Below are positions 18,664 to 27,604 of a stretch of 64,000 nt of DNA, piece by piece. This stretch comes from Paractinoplanes ovalisporus. Lineage in GTDB: Bacteria; Actinomycetota; Actinomycetes; Mycobacteriales; Micromonosporaceae. The stretch covers positions 620,001 to 684,000 of the forward strand of contig NZ_JAENHP010000003.1 in assembly GCF_016834655.1 (NCBI RefSeq). The letters are read 5' to 3'. Made by a program: the position numbers and the translations under genes. Below the pieces are notes generated by a model. The model did not search any database. It had not been told where the DNA came from and saw only the letters and a program-made list of their open reading frames with translations. How positions within the stretch are numbered: position 1 is the first letter of the stretch; each line of letters opens with the position of its first letter.

Positions 18664-21600
18664 TCACAGGGTCAATCGGTGGGTGCCGATCTTCTCGACG
18701 GCGACTGCCAACGCGGCCACGATCTTGCGATGTTCCCGTTCGCCGGAACGCACCAGCTCGAGGGCCTCGGCCACATCGCTCGAGTCGTCCATAGGTCCAA
18801 CAGCTCGTTCAAGGTCCTGACGGACGCTGAGGAGCGCCTCGTGGGATGGCTTCGCCTGTTCGGCCACTGCCCGCAAACGCACTATCGTCGCCTTCAGAAA
18901 ATCGTGAGACTCCGATGGACTCACGTACTCCACCCGTGATCCCGGCGCCTGGCCGGTGTCGATTGTGGCGAGCCGATAGGTGATTTCCCTGACGAGCGGG
19001 TCGCCTTGTGAACGGTAGCGCCTGACCCACCGCAGGACCTCGCGGGCGGCCTCGGCCAACTGGGCGAAGCCGTGGTCTGAGGTTCCGAAACGGTTTAGCA
19101 TCGCCGCCGTGCATTGCGTGACGTCGTCCCACGCCACGTGAGGCACCAGTAGTTCTCTCAGCACTTCGGAGGCGAGCGTGGCGTCGACTCCGGGGTCGAC
19201 GCTCATCGCCGCCAGCAGAAGGCCGCTGTAGCCGAGCCTGGCTTTGCGGTCCCACGGCGGAAAGTGATACGCGGCGATGCGTGCACAGTCACGGTAGGCA
19301 GCCGGCCGAATGTCTGGCGCTAGCGGATGCGCCGGCAAAAGCATGACGTCGAGCAGCGCTCCGGCGGCCGACGGATAGCGGTCCGGGAGCCAGCTGACAA
19401 ACGTGCGCGTCGTGACCTCGATCTCGGAACCCAGAAGCGGCTGAAGCGAATGCTGGAACACGTCGTCCTGCGAACCGCACACGAAGTTGGCGCGCCGCTG
19501 CACCAGCCAGGCCGGTGCGCCATGCGTGAAAGCGAACCCGCCACGCTCGGCGGCGGGCCGCTTGAAGGTCCAGTGCGGGTCGAGCGGTGCCGGGACGGAA
19601 GTGCCGTAGTCCAGCGTCAGGCGAACATCGCGCTCGCCGTCCTCCGCCAACCAGTAACGCTCGACAGCCACCGACTCGACGATGCTGTCCCACTCCTCCT
19701 CCCTCAGCTGTGAATGCCACAACAGGGCTTGGGCGTGCCAGGCCTCGGCCGCCTCCCGCTCGCGGGGTGTGCAGAGATCCGAATAGGCCAGCTGGTCCGA
19801 GACGACGATCGCGAGAAGGGTCAGGTTCGCGGTGTAGGCGGCGATCCGGGACGGGATCGGCATGTGCACGGGCTGGTACGGCTTCGCGCGCTGCGGTGCC
19901 GCCGCATCCGGGCGCCATTCGTAGGGCGCGGCCGTGTAGAGGCGGCCCAGCAACGCACCCAGGTGGTTCCGATCCTCGGCGGTCAGGTCGACGGCCATGC
20001 CCTGCAGGAACGTCATGGTCGGGGTACGTACGGCCAGGACCGCGTACGAGAGGAACCGGTAGAGCCCGCCGTCGTCGACCTCGCCGAAGTGCAGCGAAGA
20101 CGCCGAGTTGCGGCGGCCCGCCTCGCGCAGCAGTTCCCAGGTCAGGCGGGCCACCAGGTATTCGCCGAAGGTCGCGTGCAGGAACTCGTACGTGTGGAGT
20201 GTCGTGTCGCGCTGCTGGGCCTGGGTCCGGTGGACGAAGAAGAAGCGGCCGACCAGCAGCGCTGACTCGGCCATCGCGTCGAATGATGTCGCACCGGACG
20301 CGGGTGGCAGGATCGCCTGGAGGTCGTCCTCGAGGTCGGCGTGGGTGACCCACTGGGATGAGCGGTTGAACATCGCGAACGCCGCGATCGACAACTTTCG
20401 CAGTTCGGTGTCGATCCATGCCTCGGTTTCGCGCGATCCCAGGCGGCTGACGTGTTTACTTGCCTCCCGACGGGCGAAAGCGCGCAACAAACGCTCATAC
20501 AGCTCGCCGAGACTGAGCGAACCTGTCTCGCGTTGCAGGGCGTTGCCGTCGGCGTCGTACAGCGCGAGCAGCAGGAGCAGCAACGGCTGCCCCGACAGAT
20601 CCGGATAGCGGAGCACCACCTCGGACGGCAAGGGCCGCACCCCCGACGAACGGAAGTGCCGCGCATTAGCTGTGTTCCACACGTCGAGCCAGCGCCGGGC
20701 CCGCTCCTCGTCGAACGGTTCCAGGCGCAGAACGACCGTCCCGGGTGGTGTCCGGGCGCGGTCGGCCACGCTCGTGCGGGTCGTCACGATGAACGCCACC
20801 GCACGGCCCTGGTCGCGTTCGCGTTCCTGGAAACGGAGGACGTCCATCAGGTAGTTCGACTGACTGACCCCGGTCGCCTGCAGCAGCTCGTCGAAACCGT
20901 CGAGCAGGATCATCGGCAGCGCACCCTGGGCGGCCTCGGCGATGTCGCGCCAGCGTCGGTCGTCGCCGGTGGACAGGCGTACTGCGTCCTCGATCTGACC
21001 CTGAAGGTCCTTGGTGGCGTCGACCTCGCGCAGCACCACCCGGATGGGCAGAAAGTCGGCAGCGGGCAGGCGAGCGGCCAGCACCTTGGTCAGCACCGAC
21101 TTGCCCGCACCGGGCTGGCCCAGCAGCAACATGGGGGCCTGGACCGCCCCGGGGGACGTGAGCCGGCCGACCAGGTAGTCGTCGAGGTCGTCGCGAATCG
21201 GTACGTCCGCCCAGACCGCCTCGTCGCTGGCCACCGAGTCGGCCGGCGCGCCCGTCACCCGGAACGGCGGTGGCACGTAAGCGTCGGCCAGCGTCGGCAC
21301 GGTCATACCCTCGGGGACGTCGGTACTCTCGGTGATAGGCCGGTCGAGCGCGGCCGCGTACGCCCGGTGGAAGCTCTCGCGGACCTCTCCGGGGGTGCGG
21401 CCCGAGCTGATTTCGGCCAGGGTCGCTTCGAGGTTCTGCAGGGAGAGCCGCAGACTGCGGTGCTCACGCAGGTTGGCCCAGTGGGCAATCTCCGGGAAGT
21501 CGGCGACCAGTTCCAGCAGCATGTCGCCGTAGCGCCGCCCCGCGCGCCACCCGATGTCTTCCAGCACGGTTGTGAAGGCGTCACGCTGAGGCGGGGTCAG

Positions 21601-22137
21601 TGCGTCCCAGGCGGCCAGGCCCGACACGAATCGCACCACCGCCGTCGCCAGCCCACGGTGGAATTCCAGCAACTCGCCCAGATACTCGTCGTGGCTGCGG
21701 TGCGGCACGGGCAAAGCGACCGCCGTGGCCAGCACGTCGGCGGCCAGGGACTCCCCCGCGGCCGCCGGGCCGCCACCGGCCAGCGCGAGCTGCTCGGACC
21801 GGGACGGGACCAGATCACCGAACGCGAAGGGCAGCGGGGCCTCGGACAGGACCTCGAAGAACGACGCGACGACCAGGACCGTGTGTGCCGCCTCGACCTG
21901 TTGGGTGCGCCCGAGCCGGTGGCTGCCGGTGCGGCGTTGCCGGGCCCGCCCGACCAGGCCGCGCGACAGGCGTGCGAATTCGGCCCGCGCGTCGAACCAG
22001 CCCAGCAGCGCGGGAACCACGGTCACCGTGCCGCCCAGCATCAGCCCGGTGGTGACCTTGTCGAGCGCGTCGACGACGCCACCCTGGTCACCGCCGAGCA
22101 GTCGTACGGCGTCCCGATAGGTCAGGCCCTTCGCCAC
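18664..22137 (-). CDS. NACHT NTPase with N-terminal helical domain, candidate phage-defence protein
   Basis: A 1157-residue STAND-class NTPase. The N-terminal 250 residues are helical and begin GLTYRDAVRLLGG, as in the NNH7-type domains found before bacterial NACHT modules. The NACHT module has Walker A GQPGAGKS (340-347), Walker B LLDGFDEL (411-418), and downstream VTTRTSVADRA as sensor region. The C-terminal 500 residues are helical and probably serve as the sensor. Bacterial NACHT proteins protect against phages, and RNA phages in some cases. The start is the GTG preceded by GGAGG at five bases; longer forms are possible. It stands alone, divergent from the peptide-modification locus. Confidence 0.82.
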   Translation of the reverse strand: MAKGLTYRDAVRLLGGDQGGVVDALDKVTTGLMLGGTVTVVPALLGWFDARAEFARLSRGLVGRARQRRTGSHRLGRTQQVEAAHTVLVVASFFEVLSEAPLPFAFGDLVPSRSEQLALAGGGPAAAGESLAADVLATAVALPVPHRSHDEYLGELLEFHRGLATAVVRFVSGLAAWDALTPPQRDAFTTVLEDIGWRAGRRYGDMLLELVADFPEIAHWANLREHRSLRLSLQNLEATLAEISSGRTPGEVRESFHRAYAAALDRPITESTDVPEGMTVPTLADAYVPPPFRVTGAPADSVASDEAVWADVPIRDDLDDYLVGRLTSPGAVQAPMLLLGQPGAGKSVLTKVLAARLPAADFLPIRVVLREVDATKDLQGQIEDAVRLSTGDDRRWRDIAEAAQGALPMILLDGFDELLQATGVSQSNYLMDVLRFQERERDQGRAVAFIVTTRTSVADRARTPPGTVVLRLEPFDEERARRWLDVWNTANARHFRSSGVRPLPSEVVLRYPDLSGQPLLLLLLALYDADGNALQRETGSLSLGELYERLLRAFARREASKHVSRLGSRETEAWIDTELRKLSIAAFAMFNRSSQWVTHADLEDDLQAILPPASGATSFDAMAESALLVGRFFFVHRTQAQQRDTTLHTYEFLHATFGEYLVARLTWELLREAGRRNSASSLHFGEVDDGGLYRFLSYAVLAVRTPTMTFLQGMAVDLTAEDRNHLGALLGRLYTAAPYEWRPDAAAPQRAKPYQPVHMPIPSRIAAYTANLTLLAIVVSDQLAYSDLCTPREREAAEAWHAQALLWHSQLREEEWDSIVESVAVERYWLAEDGERDVRLTLDYGTSVPAPLDPHWTFKRPAAERGGFAFTHGAPAWLVQRRANFVCGSQDDVFQHSLQPLLGSEIEVTTRTFVSWLPDRYPSAAGALLDVMLLPAHPLAPDIRPAAYRDCARIAAYHFPPWDRKARLGYSGLLLAAMSVDPGVDATLASEVLRELLVPHVAWDDVTQCTAAMLNRFGTSDHGFAQLAEAAREVLRWVRRYRSQGDPLVREITYRLATIDTGQAPGSRVEYVSPSESHDFLKATIVRLRAVAEQAKPSHEALLSVRQDLERAVGPMDDSSDVAEALELVRSGEREHRKIVAALAVAVEKIGTHRLTL

Positions 22138-22443
22138 CGCCACCTCCGCATTTCCGGTGCCACTCGTTGTACACGGCTCAGGGACGGTGACGCACATTCG
22201 CCGTCACCGTTCGGAGGATCAGGCCCCCGGCGCGGACAGACAGAAATACACCGCGATGCGGGAACCGGCCGGCGTCGGAGTGTGCCAAATCTGTTACCAG
22301 GCATGGCGATCCCGAGCTGCCTGTCTCGACGGGGATCGAGCTTCGGTCGAAGGTCCACATTGAACTCGTGGCTTGACAGGCCTCGACCCGGCTGGAACTC
22401 TGCGTGGCGGGGCGATGACGCGAAGTTGCCGAAGGGGCGATCA
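22138..22443. other. Divergent intergenic region between the NACHT gene and the peptide locus
   Basis: 306 bases without a gene. It holds a promoter-like element for the plus-strand locus (TTGACA at 22373). It also holds an inverted repeat, CGATCCC at 22307-22313 and GGGATCG at 22332-22338. GC content falls slightly compared with the flanking genes. Both divergent promoters should lie here. Confidence 0.45.
22373..22401 (+). promoter_or_regulatory. Promoter-like element for the peptide locus
   Basis: A consensus TTGACA at 22373-22378 is followed after 17 bases by AACTCT, a weak -10 hexamer, about 45 bases before the GTG of the E1-like gene. GGAAC at 22394-22398 could instead be an ECF-type -35. 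Confidence 0.35.
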
Positions 22444-23517
22444 GTGTCTGAAGCGGTTTGGCGGCCGCGCATCAAGCCGGAACACGGCCTGGTCCGCACG
22501 CCGCGGGGCAGCATCCGGATCGGTGGGGCGGTGCACGGCATCGCGGCCGAGGTCGAAGATGCCACCGGCGAGGTCTGGGCCCTGCTCTCCGCGGCCGACG
22601 GCACCCGCACGATCGCCGAGCTCGTCGACGGCCGGAGCGGCGTCGCCGACGCTCTCGACCAGTTCATCGACGCCGGCTATCTCGAGAACGCCGCCGCCGC
22701 CCCGCCGCCCGAGCTCACCCCGCGCGATCTCACCCGGCACGACCGCGGACGCCAGTTCTACCGCTGGATCGACCAGCGGCGCCGTGACAACTCGTGGGAG
22801 CCGCAGGCCCGGCTCAAGCGGGCCTCGGTCACCGTGCTCGGCCTGGGCGGAACGGGCGGCACCGCGGCCCTGGCCCTCGCCGCCTCGGGTGTGGGCCGGC
22901 TGCACCTGATCGACGGCGACACGGTCGAGCTGTCGAACCTCAACCGGCAGGTCCAGTTCGACGAGCGGGATGTCGGCCGGCCCAAGGCCGAGACCACCGC
23001 CGCCCGGCTGCGGCGCCTCAACGCCGACATCCTGGTCACCAGCGAGAAGGCGATCATCAGCGGGCGCGACGAGCTACGGACCGGCGGCTGCGACGTCTTC
23101 CTGCTCTGCGCCGACCAGCCGGGCGAGATCCGGGCCTGGGTGAACGAGGCCTGCCTGGCGAGCGGCACCCCGTGGGTCGACGCCGGCTACCACGGTCCGG
23201 CCGTCACCGCCTCGGCCTACACGCCGGGGCGTGGTCCCTGCTATGAGTGCGGGTGGCTCGACGAGCACGAGCGACACCGCGACGTGGTGCCGGAGAGGCC
23301 TTATTCCGTACGGCGAAACAGCTCTTCCGCTGTCACCGCGGTCTCCGCCGGCCTCTCCGGTCAGCTCGCCGCCCACCTGGTCATCGCGCTGATCACCGGT
23401 GTGCCCGCGGTCGCGGCCGGACGCCCGATCGGCATCAACCTGGCGGTCGCGGAACCCTACGAGCCGCCGCCGTTCGACCGGCATCCCGGCTGCCCGGCCT
23501 GCGGTGACAAGCCATGA
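22444..23517 (+). CDS. E1-like peptide adenylating enzyme (ThiF/MccB family) with N-terminal PqqD-like domain
   Basis: A 357-residue enzyme. Residues 15-85 form a winged-helix, PqqD/RRE-like peptide-binding domain (VWALLSAADGTRTIAELVDG). The ThiF/MoeB adenylating domain follows, with GLGGTGG (133-139), IDGDTVELSNLNRQ (156-169) and DVGRPKAE (176-183). A structural zinc site is built from C266, C269, C350 and C353. This order, peptide clamp then adenylation domain with four Cys, is that of MccB, which adenylates the C-terminal Asn of the microcin C peptide. GAAGGGG precedes the GTG start. It overlaps the protease gene by ATGA. TOMM-type ThiF partners are the alternative, but no YcaO gene is present. 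Confidence 0.85.
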   Translation: MSEAVWRPRIKPEHGLVRTPRGSIRIGGAVHGIAAEVEDATGEVWALLSAADGTRTIAELVDGRSGVADALDQFIDAGYLENAAAAPPPELTPRDLTRHDRGRQFYRWIDQRRRDNSWEPQARLKRASVTVLGLGGTGGTAALALAASGVGRLHLIDGDTVELSNLNRQVQFDERDVGRPKAETTAARLRRLNADILVTSEKAIISGRDELRTGGCDVFLLCADQPGEIRAWVNEACLASGTPWVDAGYHGPAVTASAYTPGRGPCYECGWLDEHERHRDVVPERPYSVRRNSSSAVTAVSAGLSGQLAAHLVIALITGVPAVAAGRPIGINLAVAEPYEPPPFDRHPGCPACGDKP

Positions 23518-24713
23518 CCACCGTACGGCTGCATCCGCTGCACATGCGGGCCGAGCAGCGCGGCGACGAGCGCGAATGGGTGGTCGGCCGGGTCGAGACG
23601 GGCGAGTTCATCGCCGTGCCCCCGGTGGCGGCCGACGTGATCATGCTGTTGCGCGACGGCCTGAGCATCGACGAGGCGCACCGCCGGATCCGCCGCGAGC
23701 AGGACCGCGACGTGAACGTGGCCGAGTTCGTGGACAGCCTGACCGAGCTGGGTTTTGTCGAGGCCGTCGACGGCGTCCCGGTGCCCGGTCACGAACCCGC
23801 GCCGCCGACCTTCCCGCGCCTGCGGGCCCGGCACGTCCGCTGGCTCGTCAGCACGCCTTTCCTGATCGCCGTCGCCGCGCTCACGGCGGCCGCCGTCGTG
23901 GCCCTTTCGACAAGACAAGAGCTCGTTCCCTCGTACGGGGATCTGTTGTGGACGACCCGCACGACGCCCGTGCTGCTCGGGGGCATCGTCGTGGCGTGGA
24001 TCCTGATCGGGCTGCACGAGGTGGGGCACCTGGCGACCGCGCGCGCCTTCGGCGTCAACGGCAAGATCAGCTTCTCGACGCAGTTGCAGTTCCTGGTCGC
24101 GCAGACCGACGTCAGCGGCATCTGGGGCGCGCCGCGACGAGCCCGCATGATCGTCTATCTGAGCGGGATGGGCGTGAACGTGGCGGCCGCGTCCACCGCG
24201 ATTCTCGTACGGGTCTTCGCCACGCCCGGGAGCCTCACCGACCGGATCGCCGCCCTCGTCGTGATCACGTCGCTGTTGTCGCTGCCCGGTCAGCTGCTGA
24301 TGTTCATGCGCACCGACCTGTACTTCGTGCTGCAGGACCTGACCGGCTGCCGCAACCTGTACGCCGACGGCGCCGCCTATGTGCGCCGGAAGCTGCGCCT
24401 GAGCGGGGACGACCCGATGCCACGGCTGCCGGCGCACGAACGGACCGCCGTACGGGCGTACGCGGTCGCCCTGGCGGTGGGAACGGTGTTGTGCCTGGGC
24501 GTTTTCGCGGTCGTGTCGCTGCCGTTCGTGGTGGCGGTGATCGGCCGGCTGGCCGGTTCGCTGACCGGCGACGGCGGCGCGGCCGGGCTGCTCGACGCGC
24601 TGGTGACGTTCTCGGTCAGCGCGGCCTATTGGACCTTGTGGGGCCGGGCCTGGTGGCGGCGGCACGGCGATCGTGTCCGCCGCGTCCGGCGCCGGGCGCC
24701 CCACACCGCCTGA
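23514..24713 (+). CDS. M50-type membrane metalloprotease with N-terminal PqqD-like domain
   Basis: A 399-residue protein. Residues 20-85 are again PqqD-like (AADVIMLLRDGLSIDEAHRR, DSLTELGFVEAVDG). A membrane region of about six helices follows, with the zinc motif HEVGH at 168-172 and a later MRTDLYFVLQDLTGCRN that should supply the third ligand Asp. Proteins of this build occur in RiPP loci and are thought to cleave the leader or help export. Its ATG overlaps the E1-like gene stop, and the precursor starts 24 bases after its end, so all three should share one transcript. Confidence 0.85.
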   Translation: MTTVRLHPLHMRAEQRGDEREWVVGRVETGEFIAVPPVAADVIMLLRDGLSIDEAHRRIRREQDRDVNVAEFVDSLTELGFVEAVDGVPVPGHEPAPPTFPRLRARHVRWLVSTPFLIAVAALTAAAVVALSTRQELVPSYGDLLWTTRTTPVLLGGIVVAWILIGLHEVGHLATARAFGVNGKISFSTQLQFLVAQTDVSGIWGAPRRARMIVYLSGMGVNVAAASTAILVRVFATPGSLTDRIAALVVITSLLSLPGQLLMFMRTDLYFVLQDLTGCRNLYADGAAYVRRKLRLSGDDPMPRLPAHERTAVRAYAVALAVGTVLCLGVFAVVSLPFVVAVIGRLAGSLTGDGGAAGLLDALVTFSVSAAYWTLWGRAWWRRHGDRVRRVRRRAPHTA

Positions 24714-24737
24714 CACGGGGAGAGGAGGTGAACGGCC

Positions 24738-24809
24738 ATGGAGAAGATCGTCATCCGCAAGCTGGACAAGGTGGAGACCACCAACCGGAGCAACCCGAGC
24801 GGTAACTGA
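24738..24809 (+). CDS. Ribosomally made peptide precursor ending in Asn
   Basis: A 23-residue open frame, MEKIVIRKLDKV followed by ETTNRSNPSGN. Its ribosome site, GAGGAGGTGA, is among the strongest in the window and is correctly spaced. The charged amphipathic N-terminal half is leader-like and the polar Asn/Ser/Thr/Gly/Pro half is core-like. The last residue is Asn, as in MccA (MRTGNAN), the substrate of MccB. There is no Cys, so azole or lanthionine chemistry is unlikely. It follows the E1-like and M50 genes and is followed by a perfect hairpin. Confidence 0.8.
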   Translation: MEKIVIRKLDKVETTNRSNPSGN

Positions 24810-24819
24810 CGGTTCCGAC

Positions 24820-24851
24820 ATGGCGGCCGGCGCGAAAGCACCGGCCGCCAT
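24820..24851 (+). terminator. Perfect stem-loop right after the precursor gene
   Basis: Eleven-base arms ATGGCGGCCGG and CCGGCCGCCAT enclose a ten-base loop, CGCGAAAGCA. It begins ten bases after the precursor stop. A short C-rich run follows, with no U-tract, as is usual in actinomycetes. It could stop transcription, wholly or partly, or protect the precursor mRNA end. Confidence 0.75.
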
Positions 24852-24890
24852 CCCCCGTTCTCCCGTTCGTATGCGAGGAAGCCCCCCATC

Positions 24891-26045
24891 ATGCGTAGTC
24901 CCCGCATCACCGGCCTGCTCGAGAACAACACCGACGACACCGACCGGCTGTGGGCCGAGCTCACCGCGGCCGGGACCCCGCTGATGGAACCGTGGGGTCA
25001 CGGCCGGACGCTGGTCACGTTCCTGTGGCGGGGCGAGGCGGACCGGGTCCGGGCCTGGTGGAACATCGACGTGCCGCTGACCCGCCTGCCCGGCACCGAC
25101 ATCTGGCACGGTTCCGAGGTGTTCCCGTCCGACCTGCGGACGATCTACGGCCTGGTGCTGGGCGACACCGAGGACCTGCCGGCCCGCCCCGACGACCGTG
25201 GACCGGCCCAGCTCGACCGGGACAACCCGCGGTCGGTGTTCTTCGAGGCCGACCCCGACGACCCCACCGACGCGAGCAGCTGGGCGTCCGTCCTGCAGCT
25301 GCCCGAGGCGCCCCGCTCGCCGTGGACGCGGCCTCACCCGGGCATCCCGGCCGGCGCCCTGACCACGGCCTGGTTCCGCCCCGATGTGCCCGTCACGGCC
25401 TATTTCCCGTACGGGATCGAGCCCGACGACCTGCCGATCCTGGTGGTGTTCGACGGCTACCTGGGTCAGACCCTGATGCGCATCCCGACCGTCCTGGACA
25501 ACCTGATCGCCGAGGGCCGCATCCACCCGACCGCGGCGCTGTTCGTCCGCGGCCGTGACGAGACCCGCCTGCGCGACCTGACCCCCGGCCCCCACGTCGG
25601 CGCGTTCGCCGACGAGCTGCTGCCGTGGGCCCGCACCCGCTGGGGCATCGGTTCCCCGACCGGCGACAACGTGGCCGCCGGCCAGTCCCGGGGCGGCCTG
25701 GTCGCGGCCCACCTGGGCCTGACCCGCCCCCACCTGTTCACGGGCGTGATCGCTCAGTCCGGTTCGTTCTGGTGGCCGGCTCCCCCTGAGGGCGTTCCCC
25801 GGCAGTTGATCCGCGACGCCGCCCGCCAGGCTGTCCCCCGGGTGCGTTACTTCCTCGACGTGGGCCGTATGGAGACGATGCCCGGCCCCGACAACGCCCC
25901 GTCCCAGCTGGACACGGTCCGCGAGATGCGCGACGCCCTCCGGTCCCGCGACTGCGACGTCACCTACCTCGAATACTCCGGCGGTCACGACTACGTGAAC
26001 TGGCGCCACAACTTCCCTGAGGCCCTGATCGCCGTGACCCGGTGA
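24891..26045 (+). CDS. Enterochelin-esterase-like alpha/beta hydrolase (Fes family)
   Basis: A 384-residue protein with the Fes layout. The N-terminal domain (1-150, VTFLWRGEADRVRAWW and MPLTRLPGTDIWH-like DVPLTRLPGTDIWH) precedes an esterase domain with nucleophile motif AAGQSRGGLVA, AQSGSFWW and a catalytic His near GGHDYVNW. Fes hydrolyses the triscatechol trilactone of enterobactin, but no siderophore gene is near. Set 40 bases after the hairpin, it may belong to the peptide locus as a maturation or self-protection hydrolase. That link is inferred from position. The ATG follows GAGGAA. Confidence 0.85.
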   Translation: MRSPRITGLLENNTDDTDRLWAELTAAGTPLMEPWGHGRTLVTFLWRGEADRVRAWWNIDVPLTRLPGTDIWHGSEVFPSDLRTIYGLVLGDTEDLPARPDDRGPAQLDRDNPRSVFFEADPDDPTDASSWASVLQLPEAPRSPWTRPHPGIPAGALTTAWFRPDVPVTAYFPYGIEPDDLPILVVFDGYLGQTLMRIPTVLDNLIAEGRIHPTAALFVRGRDETRLRDLTPGPHVGAFADELLPWARTRWGIGSPTGDNVAAGQSRGGLVAAHLGLTRPHLFTGVIAQSGSFWWPAPPEGVPRQLIRDAARQAVPRVRYFLDVGRMETMPGPDNAPSQLDTVREMRDALRSRDCDVTYLEYSGGHDYVNWRHNFPEALIAVTR

Positions 26046-26120: not shown

Positions 26121-27089
26121 ATGATGAGCGCACTGGGCACGGTCGACGAGCCGGCCTTCTCCGGGTTGGCCGAGCGGCACCGGCGCGAATTGCACGTGCA
26201 CTGCTACCGGATGCTCGGTTCGTTCGAGGATGCCGAGGACGCCGTGCAGGAGACGTTCCTGCGGGCCTGGCGGCGCCGGGAGACCGTTGAGGGCCGCTCG
26301 TCGTTCCGGGCCTGGCTGTACCGGATCGCCACCAACGCCTGCCTGGACCGGCTGGCCAAGGTCCGTCCCGACCCGGCCGTCGGCGGCGAGGTGCTGTGGT
26401 TGCAGCCCTACCCCGACCGGCTGCTCGACGAGCTGCCCGCCGCCGGCGCCGACGAGCCGGAGACGGTCGCCGTGGCCCGCGAGACGATCGAGCTGGCCTA
26501 CCTGGTCGCCGTCCAGCACCTGGCGCCGCGCCCGCGGGCCGTGCTGATCCTGCGCGACGTGCTCGGCTGGCGCGCCAAGGACGTGGCCGAGCTGCTGGGT
26601 GACTCGGTCAACTCGGTGAACAGCGCGCTGCAGCGGGCCCGCGCCGGCATGCGGGAGCATCTGCCCGCCGAGCGGCAGGACTGGACCGGCGCCGAGGAGG
26701 ACGCCGGAACTCGCGACCTGGTGCGCCGCTTCACCGAGGCGAGCGTGGCCTCGGACATCCCCGCCCTGGCGGCCATGCTCCGCGAGGATGTCCGCTGCTC
26801 GATGCCGCCCACGCCCGGCCTGTTCCTCGGCCGCGACGCCGTGGTGAAGGACTGGCGCGAGAGCGGCTTCGATGCGATGACGGGCCTGCGCGCGCTGCCC
26901 ACCGCGGTCAACCGCCAGCCCGCTCTGGCGTTCTACCACTGGCGCAAACGCGAGGGCGTCTACCTTCCGCTGACCCTGGACGTTCTGCGCATCACCGGTG
27001 GCGCCATCACCGAGATCACCACTTTCCACGCCGACCGTTTCGCCGGCCTGGACCTGCCGGAGAGCCTCGCACCGACCGGCACCGAGTAG
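26121..27089 (+). CDS. RNA polymerase sigma factor, SigG-type ECF with SnoaL-like C-terminal domain
   Basis: A 322-residue sigma-70 family protein. Region 2 (HCYRMLGSFEDAEDAVQETF) and region 4 (ILRDVLGWRAKDVAELLG, then SVNSALQRARA) are joined by the long linker of the SigG group. The last 120 residues form a SnoaL/NTF2-like domain (FTEASVASDIPALAAMLRED, then TFHADRF), which in such ECF factors replaces an anti-sigma factor. The start is MM at 26121, preceded by GAGG. The small membrane gene downstream may be its target or partner. Confidence 0.88.
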   Translation: MMSALGTVDEPAFSGLAERHRRELHVHCYRMLGSFEDAEDAVQETFLRAWRRRETVEGRSSFRAWLYRIATNACLDRLAKVRPDPAVGGEVLWLQPYPDRLLDELPAAGADEPETVAVARETIELAYLVAVQHLAPRPRAVLILRDVLGWRAKDVAELLGDSVNSVNSALQRARAGMREHLPAERQDWTGAEEDAGTRDLVRRFTEASVASDIPALAAMLREDVRCSMPPTPGLFLGRDAVVKDWRESGFDAMTGLRALPTAVNRQPALAFYHWRKREGVYLPLTLDVLRITGGAITEITTFHADRFAGLDLPESLAPTGTE

Positions 27090-27166
27090 CCACCCCACGA
27101 ACTCCCACAACGAACCGGCCGGCCGCGCATGCCCGCCGGCCGGTCGACGCACCCTGGAGGAGATCC

Positions 27167-27604
27167 ATGACCAGCACACCTGACACCGACATCGTCGCCC
27201 GCCCGGCCTCGCGCCGATATGGCGGCCTGGCGCTCACCGGTCTGGCGTCCGCGCTGGGTGCGGCGGTCGCCACCGCCCTCGCCGCCGCGCCGGCCGGTGC
27301 CCTCGGCGTCACTTTTGAGATCCCGGACGGCGGCGAGACCATCCCGGTGGCCGGCTTCGCCGTGGTGACCGCCTTCTTCTCGGTCGTGGGCGTCGTCATC
27401 GCGGCGGCCCTGCTCCGGTGGAGCGCGCGCCCCGCCGACCGGTTCCTCTGGACCGCGACGGCGTTGACCGCGCTCTCGCTGATCCCGCCGTTCCTGGCCG
27501 GGGCCGCCCCGGCCACCGTCGCCACGCTGATCGCCCTGCATCTGGTCGCCGCCGCCGTGATGATCCCCGCGCTGACCCGGGCCCTGCGCTCCCGCTCGGC
27601 CTGA
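27167..27604 (+). CDS. DUF6069-like small membrane protein
   Basis: A 145-residue protein with four hydrophobic segments after a short polar N-terminus (about residues 24-45, 60-84, 91-108, 115-135). The ATG follows GGAGGAGATCC, a strong ribosome site. The build and the repeated sigma-factor neighbourhood match the DUF6069 family of actinobacterial membrane proteins. Function unknown; co-regulation with the sigma factor is likely, with 77 bases between them. Confidence 0.75.
   Translation: MTSTPDTDIVARPASRRYGGLALTGLASALGAAVATALAAAPAGALGVTFEIPDGGETIPVAGFAVVTAFFSVVGVVIAAALLRWSARPADRFLWTATALTALSLIPPFLAGAAPATVATLIALHLVAAAVMIPALTRALRSRSA

Follow-up and report, generated by a model that had tools for sequence, protein, structure and literature searches.

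What does an E1-like enzyme make in an actinomycete, where its gene is followed by a gene for a membrane protease and by a peptide gene of only 23 codons? The question is raised by a locus of Paractinoplanes ovalisporus, located in a stretch of 64,000 nucleotides (contig NZ_JAENHP010000003.1, positions 620,001 to 684,000), which is called the window below. The initial annotation had described an E1-like enzyme with a four-Cys site, an M50 protease and then a 23-residue peptide ending in Asn, and all of these were confirmed in the window. The three genes lie in this order on the forward strand, and the start of the M50 gene overlaps the stop codon of the E1 gene (ATGA). They constitute one real module, almost certainly one that encodes and processes the precursor of a ribosomally synthesised and post-translationally modified peptide (RiPP).

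The leader peptide, the E1 enzyme and the protease

In total, 110 E1 loci were compared: the window and sets of 6, 23 and 80 loci, the last set being part of the places found in a scan of 250 genomes of one family. Loci L090-L092, with weaker E1 matches, were excluded. A 13-column leader matrix was seeded with 18 leaders, which come from some of the same 110 loci, and was applied with a threshold of 15 bits. A same-strand short open reading frame (ORF) of the leader type exceeded this threshold at 99 of the 110 loci, and at three further loci (L076, L088, L149) such an ORF was detected on the opposite strand, bringing the total to 102. Among 2,915 reverse-strand ORFs used as a control the 99.9th percentile was 13.6 bits; the maximum of 34.1 bits is probably one of the three opposite-strand precursors. 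Three annotated plasmid loci were kept outside the building of the matrix and all three carry a leader ORF. With a matrix made from 68 distinct 13-mers (the window's included) the window peptide scores 45.7 bits, the highest of the 108,456 13-mers in the 64 kb, while the next best reaches 8.6, and its occurrence is therefore not due to chance.

The consensus of the leader is [K]-I-x-I-R-[RKL]-L-[DE]-[KR]-I-E-T-T, or in a looser form K-I-x-I-R-x-L-[DE]-x-[IV]-E-T-T. Over the 99 loci the columns were conserved as follows: I2 in 82, I4 in 79, R5 in 85, L7 in 86, D/E8 in 91, E11 in 89, T12 in 81 and T13 in 88. On the counts of the last two columns alone, the leader Thr was rejected as a general ring nucleophile. 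The position of the precursor gene varies by clade: it is found ahead of E1, between E1 and M50, or past M50. Near five E1 genes (L082, L083, L084, L158, L159) neither a precursor nor an M50 gene was detected, and these are possibly decaying copies. The M50 gene is present beside 72 of the 110 E1 genes. Together with the 102 short ORFs this bears out the initial suggestion of a reduced and differently organised family of ribosomal peptides, encoded next to an E1-like enzyme and an M50 protease. The reported lack of MccC, MccD, MccE and MccF also held, as none of the seven window proteins scanned with Pfam resembles them.

The zinc-type cysteines of E1 (CxxC...CxxC, residues 266, 269, 350 and 353) are found in 110, 110, 110 and 109 of the 110 sequences, and the ATP-site residues R168, K181 and D224 in 109, 110 and 110. 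A thioester-type catalytic Cys was considered and rejected: besides the zinc set, no Cys column (window numbering) exceeds 86 of 110. When the E1 profile was compared with the PDB the best match was MccB (4e-46), followed by ThiF and MoeB, and PaaA was matched at 2.7e-40. Foldseek searches of the AlphaFold2 model (46 sequences, pLDDT 89.0, pTM 0.89) returned MccB in rows 1-24, then ThiF, with PaaA in row 26. VIA-align gave Z scores of 31.4 for MoeB (237 residues), 30.4 for MccB (331) and 27.1 for PaaA (309). MccB, ThiF, MoeB, PaaA and other E1-type entries are among the structural matches listed, which does not by itself exclude unlisted families such as the azole-forming (TOMM/LAP) E1-like proteins (TruD/LynD). 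The model resembles MccB over its whole length, and the MccB and PaaA alignments indicate a predicted layout of the whole protein that is MccB/PaaA-like.

The N-terminal peptide-binding domain had been ascribed to the MccB layout. The domain is present, but judged by its sequence it is PaaA-like rather than MccB-like. A profile of 15 N-terminal domains matches PaaA (5ff5) at 1.1e-11; up to an E-value of 1 its matches include no MccB chain. In the homologue L069 the family PF21475 (PaaA-like_N) was matched at 2.7e-4, under the Pfam cut-off. In the E1 tree the 101 sequences of the main clade form a monophyletic group (support 1.0) that lies apart from MccB and PaaA, whose own placement is unsettled. 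The window E1 clusters with that of L031 and with a Streptomyces plasmid E1 (support 0.86). The root of the tree is uncertain because the MoeZ-type sequences used as outgroup fall into more than one group.

The protease matches the Pfam families M50 (1.8e-4) and PqqD (0.055), both under Pfam's own cut-offs, and the NCBIfam model daptide_HExxH at 3.5e-6, far under the cut-off. The residues H168, E169 and H172 of the HExxH motif, as well as D268, are invariant in alignments of 6 and of 23 M50 sequences. The predicted structure (23 sequences, pLDDT 89.0) has an N-terminal alpha/beta domain, for which Foldseek ranks TbiB1, a protein that binds leaders, first, followed by TigE and a sactipeptide enzyme. 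None of the Foldseek matches of the M50 model reached E<=0.001. The PqqD-like domain that had been assigned to the protease is weakly indicated by sub-threshold Pfam matches and by the model, and the likeness to an RRE/PqqD domain is suggestive only because the Foldseek E-values are 0.3-0.8.

Core peptides and the position of Ser or Cys

From 170 precursors 77 distinct cores were obtained; many loci are present twice, once per collection, and the three opposite-strand cores are left out of this set. The cores are 4-13 residues long and variable in sequence, the leader half being conserved, and the core type mostly tracks the E1 clade. The last residue is N in 23, G in 21, S in 12, A in 10, T in 3, C, R and V in 2 each, and E and M in 1 each. 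The nearest relatives of the window end in Gly (L031), Ala and Ser (L293). As 54 of the 77 distinct cores lack a final Asn, the microcin-C-like Asn chemistry expected by the initial annotation fails as a rule for the family. A survey of microcin C (McC) loci reported a C-terminal Asn in all precursors, but Asn had also served to select them (PMC6495379).

Several loci contain two or three precursors. AFSQGNST and VCSNSTGN precursors lie beside a single E1 in five loci (L070, L071, L151, L155, L156), where the DUF6879 gene is also duplicated, and SFCATEM and GFCGDNA form a further pair that shares one E1. Cores without Ser, Thr or Cys exist (GLREGG, GFAV). A conserved Glu-Glu core was not found among the 77. 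Outside the main clade there are other RRE-E1/M50 groups (L086, L199, L201, L202, L034, L035, L080), whose cores have four residues (QFMT, QFVT, GFAV) or are of the HLDP type. In four groups the synonymous and non-synonymous differences within cores numbered 8/0, 16/0, 16/0 and 7/0, zero counts that are partly circular because these groups were picked by core. Four broader groups gave 19/73, 44/33, 43/22 and 30/27.

The placement of Ser and Cys relative to the C-terminus was compared with 5,000 shuffles of hand-assembled core lists, in which the S/N/G set was reduced to a single core for each distinct ending of six residues. In the S/N/G clade Ser or Cys is found at -6 in 16 of 17 distinct endings, and the entropy of this position (0.64 bits, 17 hexamers) is the lowest of 13 positions. 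When two Streptomyces cores are included, 16 of 19 hexamers have Ser/Cys at -6 vs 4.8 in shuffles, and none of the 5,000 trials reached 16. The other positions are not enriched in this clade. In the fitting cores tails of 2-5 residues precede the -6 residue. In the grade that contains the window, Ser/Cys is at -5 in 10 of 20 cores vs 4.9 in shuffles (53/5,000), and at -5 or -6 in 14 of 20 vs 8.8 (48/5,000).

Further cores are in line with this placement. At the five loci where one E1 is accompanied by two different cores, the Ser at -6 is kept in both. The opposite-strand cores GDSSNSQG, GLSNSGGT and GVSGEGG were found after the idea had been noted, and all three have Ser at -5 or -6. GWPASHGNSN, SWPLSNSIGN and VCSNSYGN, likewise seen later, fit as well.

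Proposed ring closure and competing explanations

Known RRE-ThiF enzymes adenylate a peptide carboxylate, which is then attacked by a nearby nucleophile (PMC12150305, PMC12250964), and IndF, which makes a bond between the C-terminal Ile and the Trp that precedes it by three residues, is a precedent for attack at a fixed distance (PMC12150305). In the module described here two domains would each recognise the leader, the RRE at the N-terminus of E1 and the RRE-like domain of the M50 protein. The core would be activated by E1 as an adenylate at its C-terminal carboxylate. A Ser or Cys of the core, five or six residues from the C-terminus, would then attack the acyl-adenylate and thereby close a macrolactone or thiolactone ring, outside which a short N-terminal tail would remain; the predicted product of the window is NR-[SNPSGN]. 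Finally, the M50 protease would sever the leader near Thr-Thr at the membrane and free the product. C-terminal activation and (thio)lactone closure are suggested by the conserved ATP-site residues and by a Ser/Cys at a fixed distance from a variable last residue, and leader removal by the M50 protein is suggested by the precedent of EpeP and TglG (PMC10885120). We infer from these comparisons the order of the steps, the lactone closure and the cleavage site.

By analogy with MccB, IndF and EnfB, activation of the C-terminal carboxylate is likely. The Ser/Cys (thio)lactone is put forward for the clades that hold the window, the LREGG, INRGG, HLDP and QFMT groups standing outside the claim, and in these clades it is plausible while still falling slightly on the doubtful side. 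The recurrent gene set, the leader and cores, the conserved ATP-site and zinc residues, the PaaA-type domain and the fixed-distance Ser/Cys of the main clade are all observed, and they are best read as a minimal ThiF-like (E1) RiPP cluster. Taken as a whole, this explanation, with ring closure and release by the M50 protein, is evenly balanced between holding and failing.

A number of observations weigh against such a ring. In the REGG/INRGG clade none of the 15 distinct cores has Ser/Cys at -5/-6, and the enriched position is -2 (5/15 vs 1.3; 26/5,000 shuffles). The count outside the main clade is also zero, in 10 cores, so the rule is not family-wide. GLNQSEA, QNKHQDG and ETKAVSR (Thr at -6) are exceptions in the S/N/G set, and of the cores seen later QNKHQDG, INRGGASG and GVCQDCNYA do not fit, with ETKAVSR again having Thr. 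RMSWESG (Ser at -5), at the edge of the S/N/G clade in the tree, was counted with the other grade; if moved, the S/N/G result becomes 16/20. Six of the 20 cores in the window's grade misfit, and the ring inferred for the window (-6) is not of the same size as that of its sister L031 (-5). The shuffles overstate significance because Ser is common in cores and the sequences are related, and the enrichment in the window's grade is modest because the positions were picked after the cores had been inspected and each group was tested with nine position sets. No M50 gene was found near 38 of the 110 E1 loci. The predicted product of the module has no known example, and the fixed Ser at -6 could instead mark a cleavage site or the length of the product.

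If the -6 Ser were a cleavage site, the M50 protease would free a C-terminal hexapeptide (SNPSGN etc.), and E1 would join it head to tail or leave its end activated or modified. Such a route, which we regard as improbable, agrees with a position that keeps its distance from the C-terminus whatever the length of the tail, and the M50 proteases TglG and TmoG do cut at the C-terminus of pearlin scaffolds (PMC10885120). However, Cys replaces Ser at -6 (KCGNSNS) and Ser/Cys is at -5 in 10 of the 20 related-grade cores, both of which fit a nucleophile better than a cleavage site, and cyclisation after loss of the leader would take away the RRE handle. Alternatively, the activated C-terminus might be caught by an outside amine, sulfide or water, giving an amide, a thioacid or a plain peptide, or a backbone amide might form an imide. 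The cores without Ser, Thr or Cys would be explained in this way. EnfB yields an imide or amides (PMC12250964), and 21 of the 77 cores end in Gly, like ThiS. The Ser at -6 would nevertheless be left unexplained, and the three recurrent neighbour families named by Pfam (DUF6879, the BTAD regulator, MFS) are no obvious suppliers of a nucleophile. Capture of either kind is regarded as unlikely.

In a microcin-C-like route E1 would adenylate the C-terminal Asn, leading through a succinimide to an N-P-bonded nucleotide and thus to a Trojan-horse peptidyl-nucleotide. The window core and 22 other distinct cores do end in Asn, the GNSN endings recall the GNAN of MccA, and MccB tops both the PDB sequence and the Foldseek matches. 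One MFS transporter family adjoins 12 of the 110 loci, and 11 of these belong to the group whose cores are of the SNSSGN/SNSTGN type. This route is still quite improbable, given that the 54 cores without a C-terminal Asn include those of the nearest relatives and the second precursors at the same locus, that the binding domain of E1 is of the PaaA type, and that the tree separates the E1 family from MccB as a distinct clade with support 1.0.

The (thio)lactone proposal can be compared with known systems. Microcin C (MccB/MccA) has the same overall E1 fold, zinc-type Cys and short peptide, and some cores here end in GN or GNSN. In contrast to microcin C, the C-terminal Asn is not conserved here, the binding domain differs in sequence, and a 13-residue leader motif precedes the core, whereas most MccA peptides have 7 residues. 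Pantocin A (PaaA/PaaP) is made by an E1 with an N-terminal RRE of the same sequence family (1.1e-11) from a short precursor whose leader PaaA needs (PMC12250964), but the site modified by PaaA is an internal Glu-Glu, followed by a follower peptide, and the oxygenase PaaB acts as its partner. The enzymes described here form a separate clade and often have an M50 protease (72/110). The features of the RRE-ThiF RiPPs (McC, pantocin, GRC, enterofaecin, ind), an RRE fused to E1 and an adjacent leader/core precursor, were found here as well (102/110). The macrocyclising enzymes IndF, GrcB and EnfB of Firmicutes are also RRE-E1 proteins (PMC12150305, PMC12250964), and for IndF and EnfB it is the C-terminal carboxylate that is activated, with the ring formed within a few residues; the closure suggested here is likened to theirs. 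EnfB leaders require a (V/I)RKA motif, and the leaders here carry I-R-[RKL]-L. IndF and EnfB cores use Trp/Ile and GrcB cores Glu-Cys, ind employs an M16 protease and a transporter, and the bond types differ from the one proposed here.

The EpeP and TglG systems have partner enzymes and precursors unlike those described here. In both, however, a membrane M50 protease matures a RiPP (epipeptide and pearlin, respectively; PMC10885120), as is proposed for the window.

Rings resembling the staphylococcal autoinducing peptides (AIPs; AgrD/AgrB) might arise by a route unrelated to AgrB, through E1 activation, closure by Ser/Cys at -5/-6 and release by an RRE-carrying M50 protease, a scenario that we consider rather unlikely. 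AgrB is a membrane cysteine protease and the AIP route uses no E1. The proposed product shares with AIPs a short tail and a small (thio)lactone on the C-terminal carboxylate (ring size as given in PMC12250964). If the scenario were true, a BTAD/NB-ARC/TPR regulator, at those clusters that have one next to them, could be a sensor in a cell-cell signalling system convergent with Agr, and the ester would be a type of bond new to ThiF-like RiPP enzymes. The cores yield a specific prediction, namely water loss and a Ser/Cys-dependent ring, and its outcome would add either a bond type or Agr-like logic in antibiotic producers.

Distribution and neighbouring genes

Full-length E1 counterparts were present in only a few genomes among 100 relatives, and a scan of genome contigs with a single protein query detected no relative. 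In a class-wide draw of 394 genomes, a profile of seven E1s gave 25 places, in 16 genomes, where the match starts no later than profile position 17; 103 genomes had some match at E<=1e-40, mostly to the E1 domain alone. E1 is present in 4 of 67 genomes of the window's genus. The family of 250 genomes yielded E1 matches at E<=1e-55 in 95, a few of the matches beginning late in the profile. By named records (54 loci) this family is Streptosporangiaceae, with two Streptomyces. The genera with E1 include Microbispora, Planotetraspora, Herbidospora, Microtetraspora, Sphaerisporangium, Nonomuraea, Streptosporangium and others. The E1/M50 pair is also found on plasmids of Streptomyces, Actinacidiphila and Nocardia, where it is annotated merely as ThiF and as a hypothetical or site-2 protease; the peptide gene is unannotated at the plasmid loci, for which the PLSDB gene table is incomplete.

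The module therefore represents a common branch of ThiF-like RiPPs in actinomycetes, apparently unnamed in the literature searched. No description of the actinomycete E1/peptide family was found there, although it could be an unnamed cluster in the 27,400-protein RRE-ThiF network of PMC12150305. The available portions of PMC7470986, PMC12710340 and PMC6511847 contain nothing on it. ThiF-like enzymes are a recently recognised source of new peptide chemistry, and the worked-out cases in PMC12250964 and PMC12150305 are from Proteobacteria and Firmicutes. The actinomycete gene sets are perhaps as small as three genes, with dozens of distinct cores.

Table 1. Features of the E1/M50/peptide locus in the window (window coordinates).
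Feature	Position	Strand	Remarks
E1/ThiF-like adenylyltransferase (RRE-E1)	22444..23517	+	GTG start, 357 aa, Pfam ThiF 1.2e-43
N-terminal peptide-binding domain of E1 (RRE, PaaA-type)	22444..22743	+	~residues 1-100, profile match
Four zinc-site-type Cys codons of E1 (residues 266, 269, 350, 353)	within 23239..23502	+	
M50 (site-2-type) membrane protease	23514..24713	+	proposed leader peptidase
RRE-like N-terminal domain of the M50 protein (suggestive)	~23514-23768	+	
HExxH of the M50 protein	24015-24029	+	
Strong Shine-Dalgarno (AGGAGG) of the peptide gene	24723..24728	+	read directly
Precursor peptide gene, 23 codons, MEKIVIRKLDKVETTNRSNPSGN	24738..24809	+	ends in Asn
Conserved leader motif KIVIRKLDKVETT	24744..24782	+	column counts, 99 loci
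Core NRSNPSGN	24783..24806	+	Ser -6 codon 24789-24791, proposed ring nucleophile
Fes-like protein	24891-26045	+	NCBIfam PRK10439 4.6e-44, below the model's cut-off

The recurrent neighbours over the 110 loci are DUF6879 (35), a BTAD/NB-ARC/TPR regulator (18) and the MFS family mentioned above; in the window all three are absent within ~5 kb, no search for other transporters having been made. DUF6879 looks like a partner of S/N/G-type precursors. The BTAD-type regulators (L132, L086 and 16 other loci) are in several cases divergent and adjoin the precursor and E1. The L132 protein, which was scanned, contains BTAD, NB-ARC and TPR domains. It is possible that these regulators are peptide sensors.

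The gene for the Fes-like protein begins 81 bases past the peptide stop and had been taken for a member of the cluster. This assignment was dropped: the gene occurs beside only 1 of the 110 E1 loci, that of the window, and is thus a bystander. A match to it was found in 36 of the 67 genus genomes, among them that of the window, whereas only 4 of the 67 have E1. A paralogue, 50% identical, lies ~79 kb away in the same contig (724634). The region 26121-27604 (+) encodes a SigX5-type sigma factor with a SnoaL-like C-terminus and then a DUF6069 protein. The sigma factor (26121-27089) was examined as a cognate regulator, since copies 84-85% identical flank E1 in L142 and L144, but it has a match in 49 of the 67 genus genomes and is therefore read as an ordinary conserved gene. 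Divergently upstream of E1, at 18664-22197 (-), is the gene for a 1177-aa NACHT protein that begins with an NNH7 domain (Pfam 6.6e-68). Its family name would make it a STAND-type ATPase, and no link to the module is claimed for it. In L036 the E1/M50 pair lies directly ahead of a gene for a large protein resembling nonribosomal peptide synthetases (condensation-type by eye).

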